Positions 9,360 through 37,395 of a stretch of 37,680 nucleotides of DNA are shown piece after piece. This DNA comes from a virus. The position numbers and the translations under genes were made by a program. Position 1 is the first letter of the stretch, and every line of letters starts with the position of its first letter. Where the stretch lies: IMG/VR virus record IMGVR_UViG_3300044638_004237, positions 1 to 37,680 of that record. One strand, written 5' to 3'. Below the pieces are notes generated by a model. It had not been told where the DNA came from and did not search any database. It worked only from the letters and a program-made list of their open reading frames with translations.

Positions 9360-9374
9360 GGTATCAGTCAAAAC
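9360..9374 (-). promoter_or_regulatory. Late 15-mer motif, copy before the lysis cassette
   Basis: Exact GTTTTGACTGATACC on the coding strand, 11 bases before the holin-like start and 12 bases after the stop of the giant gene. See the finding on the whole family. Confidence 0.7.
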
Positions 9375-9386
9375 ACTATAGTCAAA

Positions 9387-12300
9387 TCAGTCTTCGCTCA
9401 CTGCGTCCACCGCAGAGTCGCCGATGTTGAATAGGTCTTTTGCAAGGTGGGTGATCGAGGCTGCGGCGGCGATGTTTGGGTGAGCCAGACCCATGGCCGA
9501 CACGATCATGTCGATGTCGCGCATGACATCGCGCATCTCAAAATCGCCGGACAGGTATTCGGGGATGCGTTTGACCGGGTTGATTGCGCGATCTACATCG
9601 AACATTGATCCGCTCGGTTGATACTCTCCGAATGCTTTGTAGATCGCATTTTGTGCTGTCGATCCAAGGACTGGGAATCCGTAGAGAGGTTCGGTCGCAA
9701 CCGCGAGGGCGATGCGTTTTGGAGACCAGTATTTGTCGTCGAATAGTTCCTCATCCTCGTCATCGAGCATGTCCCGCCAGATAGATCGAAGAATTGACGA
9801 AGCAATGGAATTGAGCGCCACCACATAGGCGAGCGTCCGAATCTTGGTTGCGGTGTCCCGCTCTGCAAACGAATAGGCTACGAGTGCGAGGTTTTTCCTC
9901 GCCTCGGATGCGAATGCCCATCCAGCGCGGGCAAGAGGATTAGTTGAGGTGTTCTCAAAAAGACTTCTCGCTCCTGCGCGTGTCGGTTGCGCGATCCGGT
10001 CGGTGACTCGCTCGGCGATGTTTCGCGCATAGGATTCCGCCTCCGCGCCTGCCAAACCAAGTTCTTGTGCTTTGGTGAGATGGTAGTCGTAAGTGATCGC
10101 GTAGGTTCCTGCGGTGAACAATCCATCTGCACCGGAGAGTAGGTTTCCGAGGCGCTTGCCTGCTTGCTGGATAGCTGTCGGCTTCGCGCCCTTGAGTCCC
10201 TGCATTGCCATTTGCACGACCGGCGGCATCTGTGCGATTCGGCGTTGGATGTAGGTCGAGTTGAGCGCGGCATCCCACCCAAGTTGCCCGGTGAGCAGTT
10301 TACCCATGCGTTTGAGATATGCTTTGAGCGGCATCTCTGCGAGTGCGGCTCCGAGTTGCGTTGACTGCACAAGAACCGTGGACACACGACCGATGAGCGC
10401 AACCTGCGAGGCGCGGCCCAGCACATTGCTGATGCCTTGGTTGAGCGCCAGATGCGCCCCGGCATCGCGAGTGCCGCCCTGCGCGAAGTAGTCGAGCCAT
10501 GCGTTGAGAATCTTCCGCGCCTCGGCCCCGCCTTTTTCCTCGACCGAGTTTTGCACATCACGATTCCGCAAGACTCCATTGGCTTCGGCGATGTAAGGCG
10601 CGAAGGCTTTCCAATGCTCCATCTGGAGTGTGTGCGAAATGTAGGTTTGCAAGACATCTTGAAACCTTGGTTCGGCAATGGCGGTTCCGCGAGTGCGTAG
10701 CGCCCCCGGCGATGTGCTTGCGCCGGACATGGCTGACCCGCTGACCGGATCAAGAACCTGTCCGGTTGGTGCGGCCACAGGCTGCACGGTCACAGGCGAG
10801 TAGTTGCGAATCTGCGGTAGGTTGACTCCGTTTAGTTCGGAGTAGACGGCATTGATGTTGCTGTATTCTGTAGCGTATTGTTGGAGCAACCAATCCCGCA
10901 GGGCAATCGCTTCCGGTGAAAGGTTCGCCATGATCTCGTCCACAAAATCTTGGTCATAGTGCCAAGCTCCAGACGGCCTGCCAGTCTCATCGAGTTCGCC
11001 AGTCATGTGCCTACGACCATCTTCCTGTTCCCACATCATCACAGCAGATAGTGCTTCCAGTTCTGACAGCTTGATGCCCTGCACATCCATGCTGGGTTGC
11101 GCGAGGTTGTAGCGGAGTTGCTCGCCTGCGAGCAGATTTCCTTCGGACAGGTTGGTGAAGAATCCTTCCAGAGCCTGCATTTTTGTTTGCGATCCATCTT
11201 CCTTCGCGTTTTCCGCAGCCCTCTGCCGGTCAATTAGAGTGTTTGCTGTATTGCTATTTTCTCCAAAAAGGATACCTGCCACTTGGTCAAAGTTGAGCAG
11301 ATTGAGGATGTAGTCTTTCCAGCTTCCCTTCAGTCCGGAGTCCGCAATCGCTTTGGATTTTCTGCCTGCGAGTTGACCGGCCTTACCGGTGGCTTGGATT
11401 GCTTCCAATCGTGCGACTTCGCGTTGCTCGCGTTGTTGGATTGTTTTCTGGGTGTGGGCAGCATAAGCGCCAGACCATATCCTGGTTGCCTCGACAAATG
11501 CTGACCGACGGCGATCCGCATCGGCATTGCGCCAATCGCCAACCAATGCGACGAGTGCCGCCTCGACTTGCGCCCGCGCCTCTTCTTCGGCGGTGAGTTC
11601 CCCGCTGGCGATCTTGGCATCCAAGCCTGCAATGTGTGCTGCGACCGAGACGGCATCCATTTCCACGGCATCCCGAACAACTGCAAACAGGTCTTGGATG
11701 TCGACTCCGATGCCCTTTGGCTTTTCTCCGGGCGCGGCCTTCTTCGGCTTTGTGCGGTCGAGGAGTTTTCGGAATGCCTCGTCGTATTCCTTGCGGAGGG
11801 ATTTCTCGACCTCGCGGTCAATCATGCCAATGCGTTGCTTGAAAAAATCGGCGAGGGCTTTGTCGGCGCGGGCCGTGGCGAGGTTTTCTTTGGTTGTGTA
11901 TCCGGGCGGGAGTTCGGTCTGTTTACCCGCCTGCCCGATGCTCATGCCTTGACGCATCCATGCCGAGATGATCGCGCCGTTCATGCCGCTGACTTCGCTG
12001 ACCTTTTCGCCATCCTTGAAGACATCCATCGGCGCAATGTTTGCCAGCTTGGTGTATCCACCCACTCGACCACGGATATCCGGCGGGAAGACTGAGAGGA
12101 TTGCGTCAAGTTCGCCGAGACCTTGCAAAAGTTGGGTGCGGCGAAACTTGGCCGTTCCTTTGTTGAGAGAATCCAGCGTTTCGCGATTGCGATCCATGAG
12201 GCCGATGAATTTCGACCGCGCCCGCTCGTAAAGGGCGAGTCGGCCTTCCGGGCCTCGGTTCATTCCGCCGAGGGCGCGGTTCACCCGGTCGATCTCCGAC

Positions 12301-15300
12301 TGGCTGGCGATGGAGTAGTTGGTGTCTCCATCTTCTGCTTCCAAATCTGCGGGGTCGATATCCTCCTGCGCTTGCGCTCCGGATCGGGCCACCATGACGG
12401 CATCCAAATAGTCAGCGGGCTTTGCTGCGGCGTTGGCCACGCCGGTGCGGGCAAAAAGGTTTTTCTCGCGATACCAGATGATGGCCTGCATGTCGGCCTC
12501 AGTGAGCTTCATGCCAAGTTTTGCAAGTTTGGCTTTTGCCTCCAAAACCACCTTGGCGAAATACTGCCGGTGCGTCTTGTTCTGAGTAGCGCCTTTCATT
12601 CCGCCGATGCTGAAGATTCCGCGAGCGGCTTTCTCTATTTTGTATCCATCGGGGAATTTGAAATAGCCTTTTTCGGTGTATTCATTATCGCCTCGCGCCC
12701 AGCGTTGGAAAAGCGTGAGAGCCGCCTGCACCGTGGCTTCGTCGTCTTTGATCGCCTCTGTGAAGTCGATCCCATAGGTGCGGACTCCATCCTTTTTCAA
12801 TTCCTCTCGGAATTTCGTGATGGCATTCTGCATCTTGTCGGAATCCAGCGGGACAACCGTTTCACCCAAGAACCGATGCATCGTGCGGGTATACCACAGG
12901 TCCATCGTGATGGTATCGAACTGCCCGCGCAGGTTATTGAAGAAACTGCCAATTTTGGGACCAAGGACACGATTGCCGCGCACCGTGTCTTTGAGGGTCA
13001 CGCCGGTTGGTGTTTTCCCGAACTGGTCGCGCAGCGCCTGCCCGGTGACCTCTTGGTCCATGAATTCAGCGTAGCCATCTAATCCATGCTCATCGATGAG
13101 ACCTTGGATTTGGGCGAGGTTGGAGTTGATTGGGTCCGAAGATTTCGCAAATTTAAAATCGGTCGGGATTCTGCCGGTTCGCTTGTATTCGTTGTAGACC
13201 TTGTTGGCCTGCTTAAAATTTTCGACAACCGTGTAGCCCTGCGATGTCGTGGCAAGGATGCCGATGTAAACTGCAAGGGCGTTGGAATCCGTTGCAAACT
13301 CTGGGTGCAATTTGGAGAGTTCGCGGATTGTTTCCTGCACCCGCTCGTCATACCACCCCATCCCGGAGCCATCACCGGCCAGCCCGTCGATGATATCGTA
13401 GACGAACGCATCCGATGCGATATCGATGCCCTCTTGCCCGCCGATCTCAAATGATGGCTTGCCGAAGACCTTATTGAACCGGGCGTCGAGGTATAGCCAA
13501 AGCTGGCGGATATTATCGAACTGCTTGCCCTTGAGTTCGGTCTCGATAGCCAGCGCCGAAGTGGAGGGGCGCTTGAGCTTCTTCTGGATTTTCTTGGCTT
13601 GCTCCGAAATTTTCAGAGCAGCGGCATAGCGATCTACACGCCGTTCCGCCCGACCAACAACATCGAGGAGGGCTTCGCGTTGCCCTTGTTGGAGTAAATC
13701 CGCTCGGCTCCGAGCGCCTTGCAGATATCCTCGATAGTCGCTCTCGGATGGGAAGGCGGCAACGCCCGATCTCGCTTGAGTGCCTCCGCGAGAGCTAATG
13801 CTGCCTTGCTTGGTATGGTGGTCGATGAAGTCATAAACCTTGGGAATACTCTCCGGTGAAACTCCTGCCAGAACAAGTGAAAACTTGCGACTCTTCGTGT
13901 CATAGGTGAATCCATTCAGCCCCGCCGCATTCAAATCCTTGGCGACCGCCAAGGCCGAGTCGGCTCCTTTGGCTTGGAATTCCAGCACGGTATCTTTCCC
14001 GGCATCGTCATCCTTCCAGAGCATCACGGCATTTTGCAGTTCCGGGGCCGAGGCTCCGACGATTGCCGCCATCTCCTGCGCCATCTCAAGGTCATCCGTA
14101 TCGAAAAGGATAGCCTCTGGAACCTCCAGACTGATCTGCCCGCTTTCAACCCATCCACCGATGACCGGCTGGCGGGATTCAATTTTTACTCCATACGCAT
14201 TGGCGACATCATCGATGACTTGCTGGAGGTGGATGAATTTTGCAGACGAAGCCCGCTTCTGCATTTCCTTTTTGTTGAGTTCGGAAAGTGAATCTCGGCG
14301 CAGCGGGGCGACCGTCATGCCGATGCTGTAGTTGGTCGCGCCGGGGGCTGGTCCAGCAAAAGCCTGCGATGCGGGGATGCGATTGCCGTTCTCCTCGGTG
14401 ATGCGAATGAGGTTCTCGTCGAAGATTACATAATTGGATGAGCCTTGGCCTTCGGCTCGACTATCGCCGTCGAGGTAGCGGATGCCGGGGATGCCTGCGG
14501 CGAGGATGGCTTCGGAGGCCGCTTTAGGACTTCCTTTTGTTGAGGCTAAAAGCCGATACAAAGATTCTCCCGTGTCTGTTGTAGCTATTCCGCCAGCAGA
14601 ATGTTTTTTGACCCAATCAATAAATTCTTCAGCAACTTCTGGGGCGGCTTCTTTAATTTCGTCCCATACTTGGAAACCAAATTCCTCACCATATCCTCCA
14701 GATTCTACTGCTTCATTGATTACTCTGTTCAGTCTATTTTCCGAATACCCAGACGGGCCATTTTCAGATAGATCGTCAACTAACCTCCCTGTCCAATACT
14801 CAACCGCATCTCGGCTAACTCCAAATGCAGACGCTAATCCATTGCGAATTTTCTCACTTTGCTCGCTCAACGGTTTGTCCCAGTCGAGCAAGTCTTCCAG
14901 TTCGACATCAAGTTCGACGGTGTAGAGGTTTCCTTTGTTTACATCGAGCGACTTGCGTCCTTCTTTTACTCTCTTATCAATAAGATCGGCTATTTGCTTA
15001 TTGCCTTCTTTTCTAAATTCAGATGATGCCAAAGACAGGTCTCCCCCATTACCAACTAATTTTTCTGCTAATTTTGAAGACGCAGAATGACCTCCCAATC
15101 CTATCAAAGATAGATGTTTATTGATTTTTGCAACCGGATCGGGGGTTAGATCATCCCTGTATTTTTTTGCGACTCCAAACTTTTCTGCAAAATATAATCC
15201 CCAGCCATAAACCTGCGCTCCTTCGCCTGTGCCGATCTTCGCGGTGCTGAACTTGTCCACCTTGTGCGGTGTGCCGTGGAATGCGCCGATGCTGTAGTTC

Positions 15301-18128
15301 GCGGGGCCGGTGATCGTGGCGTTGCTGGCGCGGATCGCCGGAGTATCAGTCGAAACGGCGTTGGTTCGGGAGCCGATGGAGAAGTCCATGAGCATCTGCC
15401 CGCCATCGGTGATGATGTCTTTGCTGACCCTGTTGCTTGCGGTGTCCACACGCGCCTGCTGGTTGAGGCCGACCGAGTCGGCGAGGAAGGATTCAAAGTT
15501 GGAGTCGATCTTGCCGGTAGCGAATGCGTCCTTGAGCTTGATGGCGCGGGCCATGGTCTCTTTGAAGACTTGGAGCATGCGCTTGATGTAGTCCACGAAG
15601 GAGGCCGGGAGGGATGTCTCCTCGATGCGGCCTGCGGCGTAGTCCATGCCGACCTTGGCGATGTTCTCGATGATGTCGGTTTCGGTCTCGGTGGCGTAGG
15701 TTTCGCCAGTTGCCTCGCTGGTTTGGTTGAGCCACCCGCGCAGGGAATCCAGATCGGTGCGGCCCTCGGCGAGCGCCTTGCGGACGAAGACATGGTTGAT
15801 CTCCTCAAAGGCATCCTCCGGGCGGGAATTCTCGCGGAGCTTGATGACGCCACGGAAGACGCCTTCGGCGGTTGTCTCGACATTGGCCTCGCCGAGGATG
15901 TTGTAGGTGGTGAGGTCGGACCCTTCGGGGATGCCTGCGAACCGGATGCGCTCGTTGAGATTGGCGATGCCTTTGGAATCACCGGCCTCTGTCAGCCGGT
16001 CGAGTTCTTGCTGGACGGTGCGGGGCGCTTCGATGGTGGCAACATTGGCGGGGTCTTGGGCGCGAAAGTAGTCCACCATGTCGGAGACAGCATTGCGCTC
16101 GTTGATGAGTTGCGCCTCGTTGTGCTGACGCACGGCCTCCAGCGCGGCCTGCTCGCTCTTGGTGCGGAGGAGTTCCTTGCCATCGGGTGAGGTGACGACG
16201 ATGTCCTCGGACCCATCTGGCGCGGTGACTCGTTGCATGCGGGCGTCGAGTTCTCCGGGAGTGCGGGCTTTTTCGATGGTGTTGAGGACTTCCTGCTCAC
16301 CGGCCTTGATGTTCTCCGGCGTGCGCTTTTCCCATTCCATCTGGATGCGGGCGTCGTATTCCTCTGGGTTCTCGGCTCGCTGGATGAAGGTGACTTGATC
16401 CTTCCCAAATCCGGCCATGCGGAGCTTGGTGGCGTTGAGTTCGGCGGATGGGTTCTTGATGTCTTGATATGTGGCGACTCCACCGCCGATGAGGGCGAGC
16501 GGGAGGGTGGCAAAGAAGGTCTCAGCCCGCTGGCCAGACCAGTCGTCCATGAGCTTGGTGAAATCTTTGTCGGGCATGTCCTCGCGGAGGGAGGCGACGG
16601 CGGTCTCCAGCACAGGGGCGATGAGGTCTTGAGCGCCTTCCTGCAAGTTTTGCTCCACGACATTGGCCCCGATCTTGACGGTGCGGCGGACGCCATCGCT
16701 GGCGATGCGGTCGAGGTAGCGGCCAAACATGGGGAGTCGCCCGGAGATGCTGCTCAACTGGACCCGGTCGATGGCGGCATTGGCCGCGCCTTCCACCAGG
16801 GCGAGACCTTGGGCGAACTGCGGATCGATGTCCGGGTTCTCCAGCATGATGCGGTCGTATTCCGTGGATTGGTAGGCGAGGACGCCGAGGAAGGGATTGA
16901 CGGCAGTCGCGCCCATGAGCGGGATGCTGCCAGACAAACCGTAGGCTCCGCGCTCGGCGGTTCCCCAGAAGGAGTTCTCCTCCAGCACGGGTCGGATGGG
17001 ATCGACGCCGGTCTTGGCGACATTGCGGAGTTCGCGCACGACCTTGAATGATTCGCGCACATTCTGGCCACTCTGGATGAGTGTCTCGGCCTCCGGCACG
17101 GTGGCCTGCCGCCACGCATCGGACTCGGCTCCGGCGGGGGCGTTTCCGACCACGGCTTTGGTGAGGTCTCCATCAGCGGGAACCCAGATTTGCGTTCCGT
17201 TGCGGATGGACTCCAGCCAGTTGTTGACGCCTGCCTCTTGCATCTGAAGCGTTCCCTGCGGGACGAAATCGAACCCACGGGTGAAGGCTTGCCCCATGTT
17301 GATGGCAAACTGCTCGATCCCGGCGCGGTCGATCTGACCGGCCTGCGCGGCGAGGGTCACATATTTGTAGATTTTCTGGCGGTCTTCGGGTGGAGCGCCG
17401 ACGAAATCATTGGCGAGGCTTTGCATGTCCTCGTCGGTGGCGTTGCCTTGGGTGAACGAGGTGAGCGTAGAAAGCGCCTTGGATGCCTGCGGGCGAACGG
17501 TGTCGAGGTCGTTGATCGTGTCGTAGTAGAGCTTGTAGCCCTGCGAGAGGAAGGCGGCGTCATTCTTGCCGTCCACCAGTTCCGGGTATTTTTGCTGCCA
17601 CTGGTTGAAGACCTCGGTCATGCCGTCCACGAAGGGACGATTCTGTCCGAGTTGGGAGTCGGTGATCGCTTTGCCGACTGCCTGCATCTGGAGTTCGTTG
17701 ATGGCCTCTGTGCGTTGTTTCTGCCAATCGTAGTCGCCACGGATAAAATCGAAGAGTTGGCCGTCGTTAAGGTTTTTCTGACCGAACGCCTGCATAGCAA
17801 AGGCATCGCGCTCCGGTTCAAAATTTGCGGTATCGATGGGCCGGTTAAGTTGGTGTTCCAAATAGGCATGGATGCTGGCCCTTTTCGCGGTTGCCTCCGG
17901 ATCAAGCGATTCAGAGAGCGCAGGATCGTTGTCGTTGATTTGCTGGTAGTAGCTGTCGTCTGTAAAAAGTTTTGAGAAGTGGGTCTCTAATTCCTCCCGC
18001 TCCTTTTTTTGCTTTTGCTCTCCCCAAGCAAGGAGGGCATCGGCCATCTGCTGGCGATCCTCTTCTGAGGCGTTGTCGATTTCGTTGTAAAAGCGTGTAG
18101 CTGTATCGTCGTCGATGAGTGCAATCAT
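9387..18128 (-). CDS. Giant polyvalent protein with ADP-ribosyltransferase-like domain
   Basis: At 2,913 residues it takes up nearly a quarter of the genome. It starts with an ATGA overlap with the gene upstream and ends before the lysis cassette. Residues 1-900 are mostly helical, with a hydrophobic stretch near 535 (FATLPLALIGGGVATY) and a degenerate HExxH-like EEINH near 772. Residues 945-1245 form a polyvalent-protein ART-like domain: FHGTPHKVDKF, GTGEGAQVYGWGLYFAE, then GIPGIRYLDGDSR and NYVIFDE. The remainder contains further conserved but unassigned blocks and a C-terminal amphipathic region. The short motif [DN][FY]SI[GA] recurs at domain edges (915, 944, 1266, 1937). Its place after the core proteins suggests an internal virion protein ejected into the host. 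Confidence 0.8.
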   Translation of the reverse strand: MIALIDDDTATRFYNEIDNASEEDRQQMADALLAWGEQKQKKEREELETHFSKLFTDDSYYQQINDNDPALSESLDPEATAKRASIHAYLEHQLNRPIDTANFEPERDAFAMQAFGQKNLNDGQLFDFIRGDYDWQKQRTEAINELQMQAVGKAITDSQLGQNRPFVDGMTEVFNQWQQKYPELVDGKNDAAFLSQGYKLYYDTINDLDTVRPQASKALSTLTSFTQGNATDEDMQSLANDFVGAPPEDRQKIYKYVTLAAQAGQIDRAGIEQFAINMGQAFTRGFDFVPQGTLQMQEAGVNNWLESIRNGTQIWVPADGDLTKAVVGNAPAGAESDAWRQATVPEAETLIQSGQNVRESFKVVRELRNVAKTGVDPIRPVLEENSFWGTAERGAYGLSGSIPLMGATAVNPFLGVLAYQSTEYDRIMLENPDIDPQFAQGLALVEGAANAAIDRVQLSSISGRLPMFGRYLDRIASDGVRRTVKIGANVVEQNLQEGAQDLIAPVLETAVASLREDMPDKDFTKLMDDWSGQRAETFFATLPLALIGGGVATYQDIKNPSAELNATKLRMAGFGKDQVTFIQRAENPEEYDARIQMEWEKRTPENIKAGEQEVLNTIEKARTPGELDARMQRVTAPDGSEDIVVTSPDGKELLRTKSEQAALEAVRQHNEAQLINERNAVSDMVDYFRAQDPANVATIEAPRTVQQELDRLTEAGDSKGIANLNERIRFAGIPEGSDLTTYNILGEANVETTAEGVFRGVIKLRENSRPEDAFEEINHVFVRKALAEGRTDLDSLRGWLNQTSEATGETYATETETDIIENIAKVGMDYAAGRIEETSLPASFVDYIKRMLQVFKETMARAIKLKDAFATGKIDSNFESFLADSVGLNQQARVDTASNRVSKDIITDGGQMLMDFSIGSRTNAVSTDTPAIRASNATITGPANYSIGAFHGTPHKVDKFSTAKIGTGEGAQVYGWGLYFAEKFGVAKKYRDDLTPDPVAKINKHLSLIGLGGHSASSKLAEKLVGNGGDLSLASSEFRKEGNKQIADLIDKRVKEGRKSLDVNKGNLYTVELDVELEDLLDWDKPLSEQSEKIRNGLASAFGVSRDAVEYWTGRLVDDLSENGPSGYSENRLNRVINEAVESGGYGEEFGFQVWDEIKEAAPEVAEEFIDWVKKHSAGGIATTDTGESLYRLLASTKGSPKAASEAILAAGIPGIRYLDGDSRAEGQGSSNYVIFDENLIRITEENGNRIPASQAFAGPAPGATNYSIGMTVAPLRRDSLSELNKKEMQKRASSAKFIHLQQVIDDVANAYGVKIESRQPVIGGWVESGQISLEVPEAILFDTDDLEMAQEMAAIVGASAPELQNAVMLWKDDDAGKDTVLEFQAKGADSALAVAKDLNAAGLNGFTYDTKSRKFSLVLAGVSPESIPKVYDFIDHHTKQGSISSRGGTQARSGVAAFPSESDYRGYLQGARSRADLLQQGQREALLDVVGRAERRVDRYAAALKISEQAKKIQKKLKRPSTSALAIETELKGKQFDNIRQLWLYLDARFNKVFGKPSFEIGGQEGIDIASDAFVYDIIDGLAGDGSGMGWYDERVQETIRELSKLHPEFATDSNALAVYIGILATTSQGYTVVENFKQANKVYNEYKRTGRIPTDFKFAKSSDPINSNLAQIQGLIDEHGLDGYAEFMDQEVTGQALRDQFGKTPTGVTLKDTVRGNRVLGPKIGSFFNNLRGQFDTITMDLWYTRTMHRFLGETVVPLDSDKMQNAITKFREELKKDGVRTYGIDFTEAIKDDEATVQAALTLFQRWARGDNEYTEKGYFKFPDGYKIEKAARGIFSIGGMKGATQNKTHRQYFAKVVLEAKAKLAKLGMKLTEADMQAIIWYREKNLFARTGVANAAAKPADYLDAVMVARSGAQAQEDIDPADLEAEDGDTNYSIASQSEIDRVNRALGGMNRGPEGRLALYERARSKFIGLMDRNRETLDSLNKGTAKFRRTQLLQGLGELDAILSVFPPDIRGRVGGYTKLANIAPMDVFKDGEKVSEVSGMNGAIISAWMRQGMSIGQAGKQTELPPGYTTKENLATARADKALADFFKQRIGMIDREVEKSLRKEYDEAFRKLLDRTKPKKAAPGEKPKGIGVDIQDLFAVVRDAVEMDAVSVAAHIAGLDAKIASGELTAEEEARAQVEAALVALVGDWRNADADRRRSAFVEATRIWSGAYAAHTQKTIQQREQREVARLEAIQATGKAGQLAGRKSKAIADSGLKGSWKDYILNLLNFDQVAGILFGENSNTANTLIDRQRAAENAKEDGSQTKMQALEGFFTNLSEGNLLAGEQLRYNLAQPSMDVQGIKLSELEALSAVMMWEQEDGRRHMTGELDETGRPSGAWHYDQDFVDEIMANLSPEAIALRDWLLQQYATEYSNINAVYSELNGVNLPQIRNYSPVTVQPVAAPTGQVLDPVSGSAMSGASTSPGALRTRGTAIAEPRFQDVLQTYISHTLQMEHWKAFAPYIAEANGVLRNRDVQNSVEEKGGAEARKILNAWLDYFAQGGTRDAGAHLALNQGISNVLGRASQVALIGRVSTVLVQSTQLGAALAEMPLKAYLKRMGKLLTGQLGWDAALNSTYIQRRIAQMPPVVQMAMQGLKGAKPTAIQQAGKRLGNLLSGADGLFTAGTYAITYDYHLTKAQELGLAGAEAESYARNIAERVTDRIAQPTRAGARSLFENTSTNPLARAGWAFASEARKNLALVAYSFAERDTATKIRTLAYVVALNSIASSILRSIWRDMLDDEDEELFDDKYWSPKRIALAVATEPLYGFPVLGSTAQNAIYKAFGEYQPSGSMFDVDRAINPVKRIPEYLSGDFEMRDVMRDIDMIVSAMGLAHPNIAAAASITHLAKDLFNIGDSAVDAVSED

Positions 18129-20248: not shown

Positions 20249-20251
20249 GAC

Positions 20252-21088
20252 TTATTGGGCTTTGAAGGTAGTTCCCGATCCTGTTGGATTTTTTGATTTC
20301 GAGCTTCCGTAGGCGGACAACCCGATCTGGCCCATCTGGGCGACTCCAGCTGCTCCGGCAGCGTAGCCACCGAGTTGGGTGGCGCGACTCGTCGCATAGC
20401 CTGCCTGCTGCTCGATGGCGGCTTGGCGCATGGCGATTCGGTAGCCTGCGCCTGCGGCTTTTTCGGCGAACTGGGCGTCATTGAAAGAAATCTGTGCGCT
20501 CTTCTTGGCCATGGCGCTGGAGAAGAGGTCGGCATTCATGTTGAAATCGCCAACCAGGCTATTCATGTCCGCCTCGTAGCGTTTCTTGTTGCTCTCCAAA
20601 TTGGCGAGGAGCTTTGTGTCGGCGACCTGCATCTCGTAGAGGTTCGCGGTATCAGTCAAAACAGCAAGAGGAGATCCTTCGGTGGTGACTCCCCCCTTGG
20701 CGAACTGGCTCCGCTGGAGACCGAGGATGCGGGCCTTCTCGGCGCGGATGCGGTCTGCCTGCTGGCGGGCTTGGGTATCGACGCCATCGGCTTGAGCGCG
20801 GAGTTGCTGCGCTTGCTGCTGGACGAGGATGTTGTTCATGTTCGCTTGGTCGGCTTGCGACTGCGCGTTGAACATGGCGAGTTGGGAATTGAACTGCTCG
20901 GCCTGCGCGGCCCGCTCTGCGGCCATGCGTTGCCATGCGGCGTTCTGCTCGTTGATCTGGCGGTTGTAGTCCGCGATGGCGGCTTGGGATTTCGCCTGCT
21001 GGTCGGCAGAATACATCGCGATGCCGGTCGAGGCGGCAGTGGCGAGGACGGATGCAGTCGTAAGGGCGATGGTGGTTGCGGATGCCAT
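20252..21088 (-). CDS. Internal virion (core) protein, gp14-like
   Basis: 278 residues. It opens with a hydrophobic, Ala/Thr-rich segment (TASVLATAASTGIAMYSADQQA) and continues as a long Gln/Ala-rich helix. KSQAAIADYNRQ, NILVQQQAQQLRAQ and GLQRSQFAKGGVTTEGSPL are recognisable. The last of these, GxxxxxGSP, is common in T7 gp14-like and other podoviral internal proteins. The C-terminus is Gly/Ala-rich (QLGGYAAGAAGVAQMG). Such proteins insert in the outer membrane as the first part of the DNA ejection tunnel. A copy of the late 15-mer lies inside the coding region and encodes VLTDT. Confidence 0.75.
   Translation of the reverse strand: MASATTIALTTASVLATAASTGIAMYSADQQAKSQAAIADYNRQINEQNAAWQRMAAERAAQAEQFNSQLAMFNAQSQADQANMNNILVQQQAQQLRAQADGVDTQARQQADRIRAEKARILGLQRSQFAKGGVTTEGSPLAVLTDTANLYEMQVADTKLLANLESNKKRYEADMNSLVGDFNMNADLFSSAMAKKSAQISFNDAQFAEKAAGAGYRIAMRQAAIEQQAGYATSRATQLGGYAAGAAGVAQMGQIGLSAYGSSKSKNPTGSGTTFKAQ
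20648..20662 (-). repeat. Late 15-mer motif, copy inside the core-protein gene
   Basis: Exact GTTTTGACTGATACC in the coding strand of the gp14-like gene, in frame as V-L-T-D-T. It lies about 400 bases upstream of the gene for the 707-residue core protein. Confidence 0.6.
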
Positions 21089-26844: not shown

Positions 26845-26848
26845 AGTA

Positions 26849-27130: not shown

Positions 27131-27131
27131 A

Positions 27132-27506: not shown

Positions 27507-27523
27507 CTTATGGAAGAGGGTTG

Positions 27524-27548: not shown

Positions 27549-27564
27549 ACTTGGTTATTGAATA

Positions 27565-28419
27565 CTAATAAGTTCCACCATCTATTTCCGTTTCCAAAGC
27601 GGTGATTCGATTGCCCAAGCTGGTATCAGCCGAAGCACGGGTCGAAGCCTCCGAAGAAACTGCGTTGGAGCGATTTGTGATCTCTGCGGAGAGATCGCTT
27701 TCGAGGGTGCTGATGTCGCTCTCGGCTGCGGTCACCCGCGAGGCCAAGGCCGTTGCTGAGGAGACAACTCCATCGATACGAACTCCGAGTGCCGATTCCG
27801 CTGCGGTGGCGCGGGTAACCTCGTTTTGCAGGCCGGTGGAGGCTGAGGAAGCGAGGTTGGTGATGGCTCCGTTCAAGCTGGAATCCGCAGCCTCAAAGGC
27901 AGTTACGATTTCCGACAAGCTGTCGAGCGAACCTTGTGTTGTGTTGCTCAACACATTGTCGATCCGAGTTCCGAGAGCTGCCTCTGCTGCGGTCGCACGG
28001 GTCACCTCGGAGGCGAGGTTCGTGGTGAGAGTGCCTTCAGCGGCTTGGGCGCGTGTGACTTCCGAAGCGAGGTTCGTGGTCAATGTGGCGTCACCGGCTT
28101 GTCTTGCGGAGGTTTCTGAAGCGAGGTTGCTCGCGGCGGTGGCTGCGGCTGCGGAGACGGCTGCGGCTCGATCCGAAACCTCGGTTGCGAGATTCGCGGT
28201 CAAGGTGGCGTCCGCTGCGGAGCGAAGCGCGGCTTCTGCTGCCACCGCTGCGTCAGCGTAAGTCTTTTTAGCAAAGACATTTTCACCGCCGATAACGAGC
28301 GGGCCGTCTGCTGTTCCTACGAACAGGGACTTGTTGAGTGTGTCGATTGCGAGTTCACCAGCGGAAAGATTTTGTGGCGAACCACTTCCGCGTTTGATTT
28401 TGAGGATTGGATTGGGCAT
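27565..28419 (-). CDS. Tail fibre protein with Ala-rich coiled-coil repeats
   Basis: 284 residues. The N-terminus MPNPILKIKRGSGSPQNLSAGELAIDTLNKSLFVGTADG is the familiar virion-attachment head of phage fibres. From residue 60 onward it is an Ala/Thr/Ser-rich coiled coil with repeating units such as TTNLASEVTRAxAAE (at least three), then AAESALGVRIDG, TAAESDISTLESDL and a final ALETEIDG. Such trimeric coiled coils make shafts of fibres. No receptor-binding tip or chaperone follows, so it may be a short fibre or carry an accessory tip. Confidence 0.78.
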   Translation of the reverse strand: MPNPILKIKRGSGSPQNLSAGELAIDTLNKSLFVGTADGPLVIGGENVFAKKTYADAAVAAEAALRSAADATLTANLATEVSDRAAAVSAAAATAASNLASETSARQAGDATLTTNLASEVTRAQAAEGTLTTNLASEVTRATAAEAALGTRIDNVLSNTTQGSLDSLSEIVTAFEAADSSLNGAITNLASSASTGLQNEVTRATAAESALGVRIDGVVSSATALASRVTAAESDISTLESDLSAEITNRSNAVSSEASTRASADTSLGNRITALETEIDGGTY

Positions 28420-28442
28420 TTGATTTATTTGGTTGTTGGTTT

Positions 28443-28457
28443 GGTATCAGTCAAAAC
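28443..28457 (-). promoter_or_regulatory. Late 15-mer motif, copy before the fibre genes
   Basis: Exact GTTTTGACTGATACC, 23 bases before the fibre start codon in the 69-base gap. With the preceding CATCA it can fold as ATCAGT-TTTG-ACTGAT. Confidence 0.7.
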
Positions 28458-28488
28458 TGATGGGTTTTCTTGGTGTTATGGGGAAAGT

Positions 28489-28725
28489 TCAGAAGTTGCC
28501 GCAGTCGATGGTTTCGAGCATGAGTCGGTAGGTGTTGGCGGCGTTGTCCCACAGCCATTGCAGGTGTGTATCCTGCGCGTGGTAGATGCGGGCTTCCTTG
28601 CCGGGTTGAGGAAAGTTTTCTGCGGTTGGGTAGATGACGAGCGCCTTGGTGTCATCCGGCAAAAGGATCGTGAACTGGGAGAGGTCCAGTTGCTGCGTGA
28701 TGACATTCTCAGTGATCGTCGTCAT
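28489..28725 (-). CDS. Hypothetical protein after the adaptor fusion gene
   Basis: 78 residues from MTTITENVITQQLDLS. The ATG overlaps the adaptor stop (ATGA). Beta-rich, with FTILLPDDTKALVIYP and a Trp-rich end (LQWLWDNAANTYR). No family recognised. The composition resembles small tail or fibre-associated proteins. The gap downstream holds the late motif. Confidence 0.62.
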   Translation of the reverse strand: MTTITENVITQQLDLSQFTILLPDDTKALVIYPTAENFPQPGKEARIYHAQDTHLQWLWDNAANTYRLMLETIDCGNF

Positions 28726-30650: not shown

Positions 30651-30676
30651 TGAGGCGCGGTCAGATCACAGATTGG

Positions 30677-30707
30677 AAAAAGGGTGGCAGACATTGCCCG
30701 GTCTGCC
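30677..30707 (-). terminator. Rho-independent terminator after the capsid gene
   Basis: On the minus strand GGCAGAC (30707-30701) pairs with GTCTGCC (30692-30686) around an eight-base loop; a five-T run follows after a four-base spacer. It lies in the 72-base gap between the major capsid and adaptor genes. This partial stop would keep capsid message abundant relative to tail genes. Confidence 0.75.
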
Positions 30708-30722
30708 AGCGGGGTGCGGGAA

Positions 30723-31622: not shown

Positions 31623-31652
31623 TTGGGCCTCCTTGGTTGATTGAGTTGAATT

Positions 31653-31667
31653 GGTATCAGTCGAAAC
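31653..31667 (-). promoter_or_regulatory. Late 15-mer motif, variant copy in capsid leader
   Basis: GTTTCGACTGATACC on the minus strand, one base different from the consensus. With the preceding CATCA it forms a hairpin ATCAGT-TTCG-ACTGAT. Confidence 0.65.
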
Positions 31668-31788
31668 TGATGGTTCGTTGCTCCCTTCGCTTCCGAGTGT
31701 CCCGTGTGGGGTCTTCGACGGCGGGTATTAGGGAGCAGGCTCACAAAGGAGGTGTCTGCTCTGACGAAGTTGACATTACCGCTGATGC

Positions 31789-31803
31789 GGTATCAGTCAA
31801 AAC
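31789..31803 (-). promoter_or_regulatory. Late 15-mer motif, copy after the tRNA
   Basis: Exact GTTTTGACTGATACC on the minus strand, 15 bases beyond the tRNA 3' end. If the motif starts transcripts, this copy would drive the capsid leader. Confidence 0.65.
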
Positions 31804-31818
31804 TTTTTTTCAAAAAAA

Positions 31819-31889
31819 TAGCGGGGCCGGGAGTCGAACCCGGAATTCCAGATTATGAAACTGGTGTTATACCTTTTCACTACCCCGCA
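31819..31889 (-). tRNA. tRNA-Met(CAT), phage-encoded
   Basis: A 71-base tRNA. The T arm is perfect (CCGGG TTCGACT CCCGG). The acceptor strands pair over six GC pairs (GCGGGG/CCCCGC), with a T-T mismatch at 1:72. The anticodon loop TTCATAA gives CAT. The anticodon stem CCAGT/TCTGG has a T-T mismatch next to the loop. The D arm is weak (GTGA..., one mismatch) but keeps GG in its loop. CCA is not encoded. It could be Met, or Ile with a modified C34. It begins four bases after the scaffold stop. Confidence 0.85.
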
Positions 31890-31893
31890 GTTT

Positions 31894-32772
31894 TTACCCC
31901 TGCTTGAGCAGGGAGGTGACGAGCGCAGCGGCTTCGCGGTCGCCTTCCATGTAGCGTTTGTGCCAAGTGTTGTCGGGATTCGACATGATGTCCTTGGCGC
32001 GTGCTGCGCCGGTCATAAACTCCGTGCCACCCATCGAGCGCCCGACCTTGTCCTCGCTCATCATCTGCGCCATGCGAACGAATCCACGCACAACCTCCGG
32101 GTCGCTGAACCCGTGGGAATTCGCATCCACGCCAGCGAGCTTCGCGGCCTGCTTGGCGAGTCCGATGTTCTTTCCGAAATCATTCCCCCACTCTTTCTGA
32201 AGCGTCTGCACAGCCTCGGTGCGTTGCTTCTCAAAGGTGGCTTGGATCGCCTCCATCTTGAACATTTCGGTCTTTGCGTGCTGGGCGACGAGTTCCTTCA
32301 TGGCCGAGGGCGGGATGCCGTGCTTGTGGGCGATCTCGGCATACGGCTTCGCCATGTCGTCGCTCCATGTCATCCCCTCCGGGAGGGAATCCGGCGCGAA
32401 CTTGTATTCCTCCAGAGAGTCCGGCACGCCCATGGCGCGGCGGAATGCGGCGACCTCTTCGGGCGAGGATTTCTCGTTTGGAACGCCGAGCTTTTTCCCG
32501 ATGAGTGCATTCGCATTCGCGAGTGCCTTCGCCATGTCCGGAACGCTTTTGTATTTTGAGAGCGTGTCCTTGTAGTCCTTCGCATCATCTGGAAGGGCAT
32601 CGAGCCACTTGTCGCCAAATGTGCCGTCCGGGTTCACCCAGCCGGTCGAGGGAGTTGAGGGTTGCGTGGAGGTGTCCGCAGCGGGCTGCGCCTGTGCATC
32701 TGGAGATGCGCTTGTGTTATCGGCTGCGGCGAGAAGCGAGGTCTCGCCGGAGGTGTCGATGGGGTCTTCCAT
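31894..32772 (-). CDS. Scaffolding protein
   Basis: 292 residues. The first 45 are disordered (Ala/Ser/Thr/Gln). The core has WVNPDGTFGDKWLDALPDDAKDYKDTLSKYKSVPDMAKALAN, then GKKLGVPNEKSSPEEVAAFRRAMGVPDSLEEY, a motif shared by many phage scaffolds. A long helical region and GSGA-like C-terminal part follow (FMTGAARAKDIMSNPDNTWHKRY). It lies between portal-side genes and the capsid, the usual place for the scaffold. A late motif stands five bases before its ATG. Confidence 0.82.
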   Translation of the reverse strand: MEDPIDTSGETSLLAAADNTSASPDAQAQPAADTSTQPSTPSTGWVNPDGTFGDKWLDALPDDAKDYKDTLSKYKSVPDMAKALANANALIGKKLGVPNEKSSPEEVAAFRRAMGVPDSLEEYKFAPDSLPEGMTWSDDMAKPYAEIAHKHGIPPSAMKELVAQHAKTEMFKMEAIQATFEKQRTEAVQTLQKEWGNDFGKNIGLAKQAAKLAGVDANSHGFSDPEVVRGFVRMAQMMSEDKVGRSMGGTEFMTGAARAKDIMSNPDNTWHKRYMEGDREAAALVTSLLKQG

Positions 32773-32776
32773 AAAT

Positions 32777-32791
32777 GGTATCAGTCAAAAC
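32777..32791 (-). promoter_or_regulatory. Late 15-mer motif, copy before scaffold
   Basis: Exact GTTTTGACTGATACC, four bases before the scaffold ATG and six bases after the preceding stop. Confidence 0.7.
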
Positions 32792-32797
32792 TGCGCG

Positions 32798-32977
32798 TCA
32801 GTCTTGATGCGGGTGGTAACCGAGATGGGTCGAGCGACCGGCGTAGGTCTTTTGGAATTCTTCCGGTGCGTAATCGCGGAGCCACTCGACGAGTTCGATG
32901 GTCTTGTCGCCCAGCATGGGGTCCATTTCGGGGCGCGGCGGGATGTCTTGTTTTGTTTCGGATTTGGGTTTGCTCAT
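32798..32977 (-). CDS. Small hypothetical protein between head genes
   Basis: 59 residues from MSKPKSETKQDIPPRP. The ATG overlaps the previous stop (ATGA). Pro-rich start, then ELVEWLRDYAPEEFQKTYAG and GYHPHQD. No domain recognised. It is coupled to the gene upstream and ends just before the late motif, so it belongs to the portal transcript. Confidence 0.65.
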   Translation of the reverse strand: MSKPKSETKQDIPPRPEMDPMLGDKTIELVEWLRDYAPEEFQKTYAGRSTHLGYHPHQD

Positions 32978-33270
32978 TTTTTGACCTTTCGTTTGGGAGT
33001 CTCGATGTCGCCATCCGCGATGACCGGTCTGCGAAGGATCGCCTCGATGTGAAGGATGACGCCTCGCTGGCCATCGCGGAGGGCTGCGACCACGGGGTTG
33101 AAATCATAACCAGGCAGGAAGACCTGTGAGTCGGTGGCGAACTGCGTCTTCAGATCGGCGATGACCGCAGCGCCTTCCTTGGAACCGAAAACACGGTGGT
33201 AGGCGTTGGTGATCTTCTGACGCTCACGCTCGCGCCGGAGGGCGGAGGCTTTGTCTTCTGGAGCCATCAT
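32974..33270 (-). CDS. Bbp19-like head protein
   Basis: 98 residues. The segment ITNAYHRVFGSKEGAAVIADLKTQFATDSQVF, then PVVAALRDGQRGVILHIEAILR matches the Bbp19-like family, which is common next to podoviral portal genes. The N-terminus is a charged helix. The role is unknown, possibly in head assembly. Its ATG overlaps the portal stop. Confidence 0.7.
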   Translation of the reverse strand: MMAPEDKASALRRERERQKITNAYHRVFGSKEGAAVIADLKTQFATDSQVFLPGYDFNPVVAALRDGQRGVILHIEAILRRPVIADGDIETPKRKVKK

Positions 33271-34937
33271 GCTTGTCCCATCATGCCGGGGAGCATGCCA
33301 GCGAGAGCGGAGTCCTGCTTCACGCTGCCAGCCTTGCCGAGGGCGCTTGCGGCCCGCTCCATCTGCTCAGCCTGCATGGCGGCTTGCTGGGCTTGGGCGC
33401 GTTGAGCGCGGGTCTGGGCGACCATGTCCTCGTCGAGTAGCCAGCGGGCAGGCAGGCCATCGTTGCGGGCCATGTCGCGGGTGATCTCATCGAAATCGTA
33501 GTTGTCGAGCATCTCCGGCTTGATCTGCGCGTAGGGCAGGAGCATCTCGGTCGTGCGGATGAATGCGGCGTTTTCGAGGGATTTGATCGCAAGGGCGATT
33601 CTGCTGTTGTAGGCAACATCCGGCTCCGGGATGACGCCGATCATTTGGAGCGCCTGCGGAGGTGGTGGGAACTTGCCAGCGCGGGCCAAGATCGCGAAGA
33701 CCCGGCGAAGGAGAGGATTGAATAGCTCGGTCGTGAGGCGGGCGAAGGTCGGAGAAAATTGGATGAGCTTCTCGCTGGCACGCTCGGCGACTTCGCGGGC
33801 GGTCATCTGCTTTTGGAGTTGGGCGAACATCTGGAAGAGGTCCACATGGAAGGCTTGATCAATCGCCTTGCGCTTGTGTTCGGCCCTCTGGATGCCGATG
33901 TCGTAGCGTCCGCCGGTCCCCCACTCCTTCGGCGTAGCCTGCGGGTTGTTTGGGTCGAAGTAAGTCACACCACCGGCGCGGAGATCGATGTCTCCATCGA
34001 ACCCGGCAGGGATCAAGATGCGAGGGAACGCATGAATCTCGGCGAGCGAGTCGAGTTGTTTTTCAAGGAAGTTGAGTTGCTTGCACTCTGGCAGCGCGGT
34101 CCACGATGGCGAGTAGCCATAGCATTCCGAGTTTTTCCACTTGAGGTAGCGGGTCACGAAGAACGGCTGCTCGTCGAACCCGGAAGCGAGGAAGACATGC
34201 TTGCTTGCCTTGTCCACATAGATCGAGGCGTATGGCTTGTTCTCGGCGTCCCGCTTGCCCATTTCGATCTCACCCGGACCACGGGGAGCGATGAGATGGA
34301 CACAGGCAAACTTGCGGTTGGAGTTGGGTTTCTCCAGTTCTTTCCGCATGGCGTCAGTGATGTTCTCGATGCCGAACTTGAGCGCGGCCTGCCGTGCCGT
34401 CATCTCATACTCGCGGGAGAGCGTGTCCACATAGCCTTCGTCGTCCTCGGAGATCGCAAAGCTGCCCAGATCGAGCTTGGTGAAGTTGAGGGAATTGTTC
34501 TTCCCCTGCTCGACCAGAATTGCCGCCGTGCCGAATGCGCCACGGTCCAGATAGAGTTCGTGAATCTCGGTGTAAAAATTGGACCGGCTGAGTTCGGCCT
34601 GCATGACCTCGGTGCAGCGTTTGAACCATTGCTCAATCTCGTCCTCGCTTTCCATCGCCTTCGGAGGCTCCAGACTGAACCAGCGGCTTTCGAGTGGGGT
34701 CATCCAACTGAGTTGGCCATTGGCCAGAATCATGTTCGCCCGCACCGCAGTGGCGTCGAAGAGTTGCGCCTCGTCGTCGGTGGTGGGCGATGTCGTCTGC
34801 GTGAACATCGTCGCCTTCCGGGGCATCACATACTTCGCGATGTCCTCCCAGAGCGACTCCCATGTCGCTCGCTGATGAACCATCTCAGCGTGGCGCTGGA
34901 GAACCTTGTCGGCGAGTTCGGGATTCTTTCCGGTCAT
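33267..34937 (-). CDS. Portal (head-tail connector) protein
   Basis: 556 residues, of the T7 gp8-like connector family. Typical blocks: QRATWESLWEDIAKYVMPRK near the N-terminus; ANGQLSWMTPLESRWFSLEP; YLDRGAFGTAAILVEQ; YGYSPSWTALPECKQLNFLEKQ; and the conserved QKQMTAREVAERASEKLIQFSPTFARL. Twelve copies would form the ring at the capsid vertex through which DNA is pumped. The ATG is two bases after the late 15-mer and has no visible ribosome binding site, which makes the motif a candidate for both transcription and translation start. Confidence 0.9.
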   Translation of the reverse strand: MTGKNPELADKVLQRHAEMVHQRATWESLWEDIAKYVMPRKATMFTQTTSPTTDDEAQLFDATAVRANMILANGQLSWMTPLESRWFSLEPPKAMESEDEIEQWFKRCTEVMQAELSRSNFYTEIHELYLDRGAFGTAAILVEQGKNNSLNFTKLDLGSFAISEDDEGYVDTLSREYEMTARQAALKFGIENITDAMRKELEKPNSNRKFACVHLIAPRGPGEIEMGKRDAENKPYASIYVDKASKHVFLASGFDEQPFFVTRYLKWKNSECYGYSPSWTALPECKQLNFLEKQLDSLAEIHAFPRILIPAGFDGDIDLRAGGVTYFDPNNPQATPKEWGTGGRYDIGIQRAEHKRKAIDQAFHVDLFQMFAQLQKQMTAREVAERASEKLIQFSPTFARLTTELFNPLLRRVFAILARAGKFPPPPQALQMIGVIPEPDVAYNSRIALAIKSLENAAFIRTTEMLLPYAQIKPEMLDNYDFDEITRDMARNDGLPARWLLDEDMVAQTRAQRAQAQQAAMQAEQMERAASALGKAGSVKQDSALAGMLPGMMGQA

Positions 34938-34939
34938 TT

Positions 34940-34954
34940 GGTATCAGTCAAAAC
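34940..34954 (-). promoter_or_regulatory. Late 15-mer motif, copy before portal
   Basis: Exact GTTTTGACTGATACC, only two bases before the portal ATG, with no ribosome binding site between. This is the tightest spacing in the genome. Confidence 0.7.
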
Positions 34955-34958
34955 AACA

Positions 34959-35351
34959 TCAACCAAGGGTCGAGTAGCCGGTCGTCATCGGAGCCTGTCC
35001 GGATTCGCCTGCGAGGATCGACTTGCGGAGTCCTTTGCGGCGTGCGGCCTCGGCGGCAATATCGGCCTGTGGGTTGCCGGGGTCAACCTGCGCTGCGGGC
35101 GCGGGTTTGTTCGCCTCCATCTGGCGCATCATTTCCTCCTGCGCCTTGCGCTGGGCTTCGGCCTGCTGGCGGGCGAGTTCCATTTGCTGCTGTTGGGCTG
35201 CGGCTTGCTGCGCGGCCTGCTGCTGCATCTGTTGCTGTTGCTGCTGCGCGGCTTGTTGCTCCTGCTTGCTTGGACCTTTGCGTCCACCTCCTCCAAACCA
35301 TGCTAAACAAGTGGAGAGAATGGGATTTTCTTGGTGGTCAGTGAGTCGCAT
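34959..35351 (-). CDS. Gln-rich coiled-coil protein before portal
   Basis: About 130 residues from MRLTDHQENPILSTCLAWFGGGG. A long low-complexity Gln/Ala stretch (about residues 35-65) is followed by a charged coil (ELARQQAEAQRKAQEEMMRQME) and a Pro/Ala region, then RRKGLRKSILAGESGQAPMTTG, a motif shared by small podoviral head proteins. The chosen start overlaps the previous gene by about 49 bases; no later in-frame ATG fits. It may be a head-assembly or ejection accessory. Confidence 0.6.
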   Translation of the reverse strand: MRLTDHQENPILSTCLAWFGGGGRKGPSKQEQQAAQQQQQQMQQQAAQQAAAQQQQMELARQQAEAQRKAQEEMMRQMEANKPAPAAQVDPGNPQADIAAEAARRKGLRKSILAGESGQAPMTTGYSTLG

Positions 35352-35698
35352 CGCGTATGGAGTTTCGAGGTTTCGTAAATCCGGAGCGGGCGGTCTCGCC
35401 GACTCCATGCGATGAATGGAAGTGTATACGGAGCGAAGTTGCAAGGATTATTTTGACTGATACCACAATATATGGTGATCAGCCAGCAGTTCTGACACAA
35501 CCTGTGGTATGTGTGGGCGGAATCGCGCCAGTGTTCCTCCGGGTCGTGAATGTCCACCGGGCGGGCGAGCATGAAGAAGTCCTCGGTGTTGATGACGACT
35601 CCATTCCATGCGGTGAGTTCGACCTCCTCGGAAAAGGATCGCGGCTGCGGGTAGCGCCGGTAGAGGTCGAGGATTTGGAGTTCCAGTTCGCGTTTCAC
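35303..35698 (-). CDS. Hypothetical protein after the large terminase
   Basis: 131 residues from a GTG overlapping the terminase stop (GTGA). It begins (M)KRELELQILDLYRRYPQPRSFS, then DFFMLARPVDIHDPEEHWRD and RLCQNCWLITIYCG. The segment PYTLPFIAWSRRDRPLRIYET looks like a folded beta region and suggests the frame is real to its end. An inverted copy of the late motif lies inside it. The stop lies inside the next gene. Function unknown. Confidence 0.6.
   Translation of the reverse strand: MKRELELQILDLYRRYPQPRSFSEEVELTAWNGVVINTEDFFMLARPVDIHDPEEHWRDSAHTYHRLCQNCWLITIYCGISQNNPCNFAPYTLPFIAWSRRDRPLRIYETSKLHTRCDSLTTKKIPFSPLV
35450..35464 (+). repeat. Late 15-mer motif, inverted variant
   Basis: ATTTTGACTGATACC on the plus strand, one base from the consensus and the only copy in the opposite orientation. 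It sits inside a minus-strand gene, where it encodes GISQN. Confidence 0.55.
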
Positions 35699-37017
35699 CG
35701 GCGCACCTTTCCGAATCCCCCACCCCGGAATCCTGCCATCACTCTGGTCGGTTCGTGACGCTCGGCCTTCCGAGGGATCGCAGAGCGGTCGATCACCATG
35801 CCGCGCTTGATAGCCTGGTGCGAGAGGGAGAACGCATCGGCGAAGTGCGATGACCAATCATGCACCGGCACATCCTTGATGGTGACACCATCGCGCTCCT
35901 CTTTGCTGTGGTAGGCGTCGAGCGCCTCGATGCCATCCGCGCATCCGGCCTCGTTGACATGAATGCGCGGGAACGCATCGTTCGCGAGGTTGATGCCATC
36001 CCATACCGAAATCTGCCGAGGGACGGGGATGACGCCGGTCAGCCCGCTGCGGCCCAGCGCCTCCTGCCAGAGTCCTCCGACCTCCGCTGCGGCGTCATGG
36101 GGAAGGAAGTGGCCACCGTAGCCGTATTGGCGCTCCTTGAGCCGTGCCGCCCAGTCCGCAGGCGTCTTGCACTCGTCGCTCCCGGAGAGAGATTCCAGAT
36201 AGTTGATGCGGTCGCCGACCATCTGCCATATCCAGACCTTCTGGTTGAGCGGAGCGCCAACATCCCATGAGGTGTAGACCGGAAGCTCCTTGAACCAGAG
36301 AATGTCGTTGGTGATGCGTTTCTCAGCGCGGGCCTTTTCGAGGGACCGCACATAGATCGCGCCGGGTCGCCCGATGTTGAAGCTGCACTCGTATTCCTGT
36401 GCAAAGGCATTCTCGGTCGTGCCACGCCGGATGTCGGTTAGTTCCTCCTGCGGAATGATGCCGCTTTCGCTCGCCTTGAGCATGAGCGTGAACCAGTCGT
36501 TGTCCGCGCAGGCGCGGTTCCACATTCGCCAAAAAATGTTTCGTCCCTTGGGTGTTCCGACCCATGTTGCCCAGCCTTGGTAGTCGGTGAGCGTTGGGCG
36601 GATGACATTGTCCCACGCAGCCGGGTCGAGGTCAGCGGCCTCGTCCATGACCACGCCATCGAGGTAGATGCCGCGCAGGCGCTCGTAGGCTTCTCCAGAG
36701 TAGAGGCGGATCGTGGCCTCGTTGTGGAATGTGATCGCGAGATCGGCCTTGTTCACCACCACGCCGGGGATTTGCGAGGTGAACTGGACAAGGTATTTCC
36801 AAGCGATGTCCTTTGCCTGCTCGCGGGTGGGAGCCACATAGGCGTAACGGAGCGGTGGTCCGCTGCGGCGATGCGAGAGCGCCTTGGCAATCAAGTCTTG
36901 GATGCAGACGAACGATTTCCCGGCACGCCGGTGCAGCACCATCACCGACCAGCGTTGCGTGCGGTGCAGGTAGCTTGCAAGTTGCGGGCGCGGGATGATG
37001 TCGATGTTAATGGCCAC
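35695..37017 (-). CDS. terL: Terminase large subunit
   Basis: 440 residues from a GTG that overlaps the small terminase end (GTGGCCATTAA). It is the DNA-packaging motor. The ATPase has HRRAGKS (residues 29-35) as Walker A-like and GVVMDEAADL (Asp125, Glu126) as Walker B plus catalytic Glu, followed by YQGWATWVGTPKGRN as coupling motif. The nuclease domain is marked by YTSWDVGAP, later HFLPHDAA, and DDxx-like acidic residues near the C-terminus (HDWSSHFADAFS). It forms the usual pair with the small subunit. Confidence 0.92.
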   Translation of the reverse strand: MAINIDIIPRPQLASYLHRTQRWSVMVLHRRAGKSFVCIQDLIAKALSHRRSGPPLRYAYVAPTREQAKDIAWKYLVQFTSQIPGVVVNKADLAITFHNEATIRLYSGEAYERLRGIYLDGVVMDEAADLDPAAWDNVIRPTLTDYQGWATWVGTPKGRNIFWRMWNRACADNDWFTLMLKASESGIIPQEELTDIRRGTTENAFAQEYECSFNIGRPGAIYVRSLEKARAEKRITNDILWFKELPVYTSWDVGAPLNQKVWIWQMVGDRINYLESLSGSDECKTPADWAARLKERQYGYGGHFLPHDAAAEVGGLWQEALGRSGLTGVIPVPRQISVWDGINLANDAFPRIHVNEAGCADGIEALDAYHSKEERDGVTIKDVPVHDWSSHFADAFSLSHQAIKRGMVIDRSAIPRKAERHEPTRVMAGFRGGGFGKVRR

Positions 37018-37372
37018 CGATGCGGATGTTGATGTCCATGGCCCCGGCGACCTCGATTTTTTCCGGCTCGTTCCATCCCATCGCCTTGGCCAGCATCTCG
37101 CCATACTTCGCGCAGGTCGCCGATTCGGGGGGCATTTCCATGAACCGCTCGCGGAGTGTTTCGAGGTAGGTCTCGCGTTTGTAGGTGAGTTTCGCCTCGG
37201 ATTTGGCGCGGAGTTCATCGACTCGCTTGGCCACTTCAACATTTTTCAACAAGCGTTCACCTCCCTGTCCGGCTCCATTTTCGGAGTAACCGGCTTTGAC
37301 ATAGGCTTGCGTGATCGAGAGACCGCTCGCGTAGGCTTGGCAAAACGCCTCTTGTTTCGGGTTGAGTTTCAT
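37007..37372 (-). CDS. terS: Terminase small subunit
   Basis: 121 residues. The N-terminus has the HTH typical of Terminase_2-like small subunits: LNPKQEAFCQAYASGLSITQAYVKAGYSENGA, then ERLLKNVEVAKRVDELRAK. A coil and the C-terminus follow. It recognises the packaging start site in the phage DNA. It is the first gene of the late block and follows a copy of the late motif by eight bases. Confidence 0.88.
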   Translation of the reverse strand: MKLNPKQEAFCQAYASGLSITQAYVKAGYSENGAGQGGERLLKNVEVAKRVDELRAKSEAKLTYKRETYLETLRERFMEMPPESATCAKYGEMLAKAMGWNEPEKIEVAGAMDINIRIGGH

Positions 37373-37380
37373 GTGGTAAT

Positions 37381-37395
37381 GGTATCAGTCAAAAC
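37381..37395 (-). promoter_or_regulatory. Late 15-mer motif, copy before terminase
   Basis: Exact GTTTTGACTGATACC, eight bases before the small-terminase ATG. The RusA stop codon (TGA) lies within the motif itself. Immediately upstream is an inverted repeat CTTGTC-TT-GACAAG (37396-37409). Confidence 0.7.

Follow-up and report, generated by a model that had tools for sequence, protein, structure and literature searches.

Dispersed asymmetric 15-base sites at the gene junctions of a temperate podovirus-like phage as candidate stoperator-like operators

Introduction

In the lysogen of mycobacteriophage L5, the repressor acts at many asymmetric sites and blocks both the initiation and the elongation of transcription (PMC9283540, PMC6550527, PMC3029335). 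The function of these sites, the stoperators, is abolished by reversal (PMC9283540). The stoperators of L5 and of the Cluster A/CA actinophages, which are temperate, are asymmetric sequences of 13-14 bp that occur many times per genome, mostly in short intergenic gaps, and their specificity differs between subgroups genome-wide (PMC3029335, PMC6550527, PMC13313380).

Comparable repeats have been described in other phages. The available part of the report on Nostoc phages A-1 and N-1 describes asymmetric intergenic motifs that are not consistently oriented, for which a role as stoperators was suggested (PMC4916379); these phages are cyanobacterial myoviruses with motifs of their own, and no comparative test of specificity change was found in that part. 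Repeats before genes in phages TLS, T1, and Stevie were likened to stoperators (PMC11447400, PMC4319613), but these phages are virulent, and the TLS repeats, 21 bp in length, precede start codons by about 76 bases and all point in the direction of transcription. The Start-Associated Sequences of Cluster K are a 13-bp asymmetric word found a few bases before start codons, with rare copies in the opposite orientation (PMC3203893). The Cluster K word contains a Shine-Dalgarno core, whereas the word described here has no AGGAG-like core and is antisense at some syntenic genes. In the literature compared, genome-wide silencing through dispersed asymmetric sites is thus established for actinophages and only suggested elsewhere (T1-like and Nostoc phages).

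Here we describe a dispersed word in a stretch of 37,680 nucleotides from IMG/VR virus record IMGVR_UViG_3300044638_004237 (hereafter the window), and compare it with these systems.

Results

The window encodes a terminase, a portal-type adaptor, a scaffold-like protein, capsid and tail proteins, and a 2913-aa protein, together with an endolysin, RecT, a DnaC-like protein, and an integrase, and is a temperate podovirus-like phage. Judged by its capsid, the closest isolates are the HTVC010P-type Pelagibacter phages, at about 40% identity. A capsid relative at 74% is contained in a Verrucomicrobia MAG of 2.6 Mb, in which the word was found at up to one mismatch on two phage contigs only. The host is therefore probably a member of the Verrucomicrobiota, and the word belongs to the phage; derivation from the host was rejected. 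For the 2913-aa protein (9387-18128), a PHROG head/endolysin match was obtained; its match to an ADP-ribosyltransferase (polyvalent protein) was weak and fell below the cut-off. A small protein at 3343-3627 showed a weak match, also below the cut-off (E 0.005), to the RNA polymerase alpha C-terminal domain.

The 15-base word is GTTTTGACTGATACC. Our recount of its copies agreed with an earlier note made from the window alone: seven copies are exact, and three others carry one, one, and two changes (Table 1). The seven exact copies all lie on the coding strand, here the minus strand, and nine of the ten reported copies read with the genes, the one at 35450 being the exception. When up to three mismatches were allowed, the window held 13 matches, whereas 100 dinucleotide shuffles averaged 0.47 and never exceeded 4, so that the copy number exceeds chance as the note had held. 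The six copies that it had described as standing close before start codons were measured at 2-30 bases from them (holin, 11; fibre, 23; capsid, 30; scaffold, 4; portal, 2; small terminase, 8), the capsid spacing being that of a one-change copy.

Table 1. Copies of the word, and two genes discussed in the text, in the window
Feature	Position	Strand	Remarks
64-aa basic protein (gp69), candidate reader	6980..7174	-	beside integrase; three helices predicted
Tyrosine integrase	7178..8170	-	marks temperate lifestyle
Exact site	9360..9374	-	between 2913-aa gene and holin start
2-change site	15342..15356	-	inside 2913-aa gene; similar place in clade A and C relatives
Exact site	20648..20662	-	inside gene 20252-21088
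Exact site	28443..28457	-	upstream of fibre-like gene 27565-28419
Capsid-proximal site (T5C)	31653..31667	-	1 change; 30 bases before major capsid start
Exact site	31789..31803	-	166 bases before major capsid start, 15 bases after tRNA-Met gene
Exact site	32777..32791	-	fills gap before scaffold gene
Exact site	34940..34954	-	fills gap before portal gene
Inverted site (G1A)	35450..35464	+	1 change; inside gene 35303-35698; inverted here in all clades
Exact site	37381..37395	-	before small terminase gene

In contexts pooled from relatives, the conserved stretch comprised positions 1-15 of the word only, with changes tolerated at positions 1, 5, 7, and 15. A purine was preferred just after the word, as in most clade A copies, and no second element was detected at a fixed distance downstream. 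No dyad or hairpin was consistent across all copies; some copies have flanking inverted repeats, the centres of which differ. At the codons of the site at 20648, synonymous changes among relatives were unusually scarce, with rank 6 of 247 windows, and the same analysis of the site at 15342 gave no clear outcome on constraint. No occurrence of the exact 15-mer was found in the papers searched.

A scan of viral contigs found the exact word in many of them. Nearly all capsid relatives of at least 74% identity carry it, and the search of related phages that the earlier note had proposed found it kept at the same gene junctions in many of them. Other relatives carry changed words, namely GTCTTGACTGACACC (A'), TTTTGACTAAACC (B), and TTTCGACTAAYCC (C). 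The 136 loci with at least three sites, which are related to each other so that the number is descriptive and not a count of independent events, consisted of 98 pure A, 21 pure B, 9 pure C, and 8 pure A' loci, with none mixed. In the A' loci, the same pair of changes recurs from site to site, and the inverted site shares it. Since all sites changed together, selection by one trans-acting reader would fit, and a joint change across the genome is the product expected of it. Before the capsid genes of distant capsid relatives, such a site was found in 0 of 61 loci, and no comparable dispersed word was found in the distant relatives with capsids about 30-46% identical (Akkermansia prophages). An integrase is encoded by each of the 13 near-complete genomes that bear the sites.

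With genes called by a simple script, and the placement counts accordingly approximate, the sites located within 40 bp of a gene start numbered 33 of 67 in clade A, 20 of 42 in clade B, and 13 of 25 in clade C (expected 5.6, 4.3, and 2.2, respectively). The clade A excess bears out the view of the word as a real, conserved element of regulatory type. The junctions common to the clades are before the capsid gene (two sites), before the scaffold gene, inside 35303-35698, beside the 2913-aa gene, and, in relatives, close to the SSB gene. The earlier note had also confined the word to the late region. This stands for the window, where no copy with up to two changes lies at 1-8.4 kb, but 'late only' is not a rule, because the replication region of relatives also contains sites, both ahead of the SSB gene and within RecT.

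The orientation of the sites differed between clades at the same junctions. Clade A has the capsid-proximal site and the site at the scaffold junction in sense orientation, clades B and C have both in antisense orientation, and the capsid-distal site is sense in A and B and antisense in C. The capsid gene of clade A is preceded by sense sites, two of them in 46 of 59 loci. Over whole genomes, the sense/antisense counts were 61/6 in A, 13/29 in B, and 6/19 in C, so that each clade has its own bias. Because orientation is not kept at the same junctions, a promoter, antitermination, RNA-processing, or translation element, the kinds of function the earlier note had proposed, is disfavoured; as judged from the sequences, the switch of orientation and the sites within genes would instead agree with recognition of double-stranded DNA by a protein.

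The 64-aa gene beside the integrase is present in all 13 near-complete site-bearing genomes. It is absent from eight capsid relatives that lack the sites, of which four possess an integrase. Most B, C, and A' genomes have a copy of their clade's word adjoining or overlapping the start codon of this gene, and some of these copies are degenerate; in a clade B locus (L466), GTTTTGACTCATACC stands four bases before its ATG. This L466 site (upstream of 10001) lies within a 6-bp inverted repeat, ACTGGT...ACCAGT. Clade A, including the window, has no proper site at the gene's own start, and two mosaic phages (G014 and G015; L467-L471) possess the gene and lack dispersed sites. These two points make the identification tentative, and we regard the 64-aa protein as a possible, somewhat doubtful reader of the sites. 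The linkage between reader and sites is confounded by common descent. The two mosaic phages have integrase, exonuclease, and SSB-type genes in common with the group, and their capsid and terminase are unrelated.

Searches with the 64-aa protein against Pfam, NCBIfam, and PDB sequences yielded no convincing match. Its AlphaFold model consists of three helices (pLDDT 88, pTM 0.51), and a fold search with the model gave no match. Neither this protein nor three other small ORFs matched the PDB entries 7TZ1/7R6R, which represent the two-domain HTH repressor of the L5-type system. Small regulatory genes are located between the integrase and RecT. The RHH (Arc-like) and HTH_17 genes were rejected as poorer candidates for the reader because they vary among clade A phages that share one identical word. 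The gene at 6652-6903, the sole plus-strand gene called, encodes an Arc-like ribbon-helix-helix protein and is divergent to its neighbours, and this module also contains divergent RHH genes in clades C and A'.

Discussion

We read the word, with moderate confidence, as a set of dispersed operators or stoperators that would silence the prophage as in mycobacteriophage L5, although without detectable homology to that system and without one shared orientation. This reading draws on the comparison of related sequences and on analogy. The 15-mer would be recognised in double-stranded DNA, as an asymmetric site, by a regulator acting in trans; its copies, about ten in number, are spread along a one-directional gene array, mostly in short intergenic gaps and a few within genes. 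From the observed copy number, placement, and conservation, the genome-wide change of specificity, the orientation switching, and the temperate gene content, we infer protein binding and silencing. The regulator would most likely be both a repressor and a roadblock, which in the lysogen would be bound and block initiation and elongation. Stray transcripts would thereby be kept from expressing lytic genes, as with the L5 stoperators. For the identity of this regulator, the small basic protein next to the integrase is the foremost candidate.

Several observations count against silencing, among them the lack of a recognised L5-type repressor. Orientation switches between clades, whereas an L5 stoperator fails when reversed. 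In addition, similar dispersed repeats are present in the virulent phages TLS and T1, and lysogeny is therefore not always the reason for such repeats.

The sites resemble L5 stoperators in being many short asymmetric copies at gene junctions of a temperate phage, with a jointly changing specificity. The differences are the host phylum, the number of sites (about 10 here versus 20-36), and the orientation to transcription, which varies by clade here and is fixed and required in L5. Furthermore, no L5-type repressor was recognised here, and the candidate reader is a protein of 64 aa with no sequence or fold match. The present system may work like stoperators, but we do not file it as a member of the L5 type because its orientation is not fixed. 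The reverse complement of the A' word, GGTGTCAGTCAAG, agrees with the L5 consensus GGTGGMTGTCAAG at 11 of 13 positions, and the window word agrees at 9 of 13; this match was noticed after four word variants had been seen, and the likeness is a lead only, which could be convergence.

Among the other explanations, a late promoter, used by a phage polymerase or by the host polymerase with a phage factor and starting at the purine after the word, is improbable. The long exact word with sharp edges, the purine after most clade A copies, the nearby start codons, and the predominance of one orientation in clade A would be expected of it. The antisense copies that B and C have at these junctions, the sites inside genes, and the lack of an element at fixed spacing would not, and PF00940, for a polymerase of the T7 kind, had no match in 21 records, although control genomes gave none either.

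We hold it equally improbable that a phage activator of the late genes binds the word and recruits the host polymerase. An activator accounts for a trans-acting reader and for the genome-wide change of specificity, and many sites do precede structural genes. However, sites 2-30 bases from start codons and within genes are too close for acting upstream of a promoter, the sites in relatives also precede replication genes, and their orientation is not kept.

A little less probable still is an architectural or segregation site (nucleoid-like binding, partition, or packaging) with no part in transcription control. The dispersal and flexible orientation of the sites agree with such a function, for which the basic helical protein would be a candidate binder, but sites so strongly concentrated at gene junctions near start codons would be unexpected, and no partition genes were noted while an integrase is present.

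An RNA-level element acting in antitermination, processing, or translation start is very unlikely. It finds support in the closeness of the start codons and in the short hairpin that some copies can form with their flanks (ATCAGT-TTCG-ACTGAT at the capsid-proximal site). This hairpin is missing at other copies, antisense copies at syntenic places would yield a different RNA, and a Shine-Dalgarno sequence is mostly absent from genes with and without a site alike, with no clear difference. Chance repeats or copies of a mobile repeat are refuted by the enrichment, the synteny, and the genome-wide change, and nothing was found in their favour.

Silencing by dispersed operators remains the reading we prefer. 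A more specific form of it, which we consider rather unlikely as a whole, is a stoperator-like silencing in Verrucomicrobiota phages that arose independently of that in actinophages and functions whichever way the sites point. Its readers would be a new family of basic three-helix proteins of 60-70 aa encoded beside the integrase, the specificity of which co-evolves with all sites. The comparison adds to the systems described so far one reader specificity per genome, as indicated by comparative evidence, the switching of orientation between syntenic sites, and a candidate for the reader. With four site specificities at the same gene junctions and a small candidate reader, this large group of uncultured phages makes the co-evolution of all sites with one protein, and the need for orientation, testable questions.

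Additional observations

Between the two sites upstream of the capsid gene lies a conserved leader of about 120 bases (31668-31788). No Rfam family scored above its cut-off for this leader. The consensus fold of its alignment has 27 pairs, three of which are changed on both sides. A tRNA-Met (CAU) gene is located at 31819-31889, between the scaffold and capsid genes; a tRNA-Met gene upstream of the capsid gene is absent from the two clade B loci tested and present in clade A, A', and C loci.
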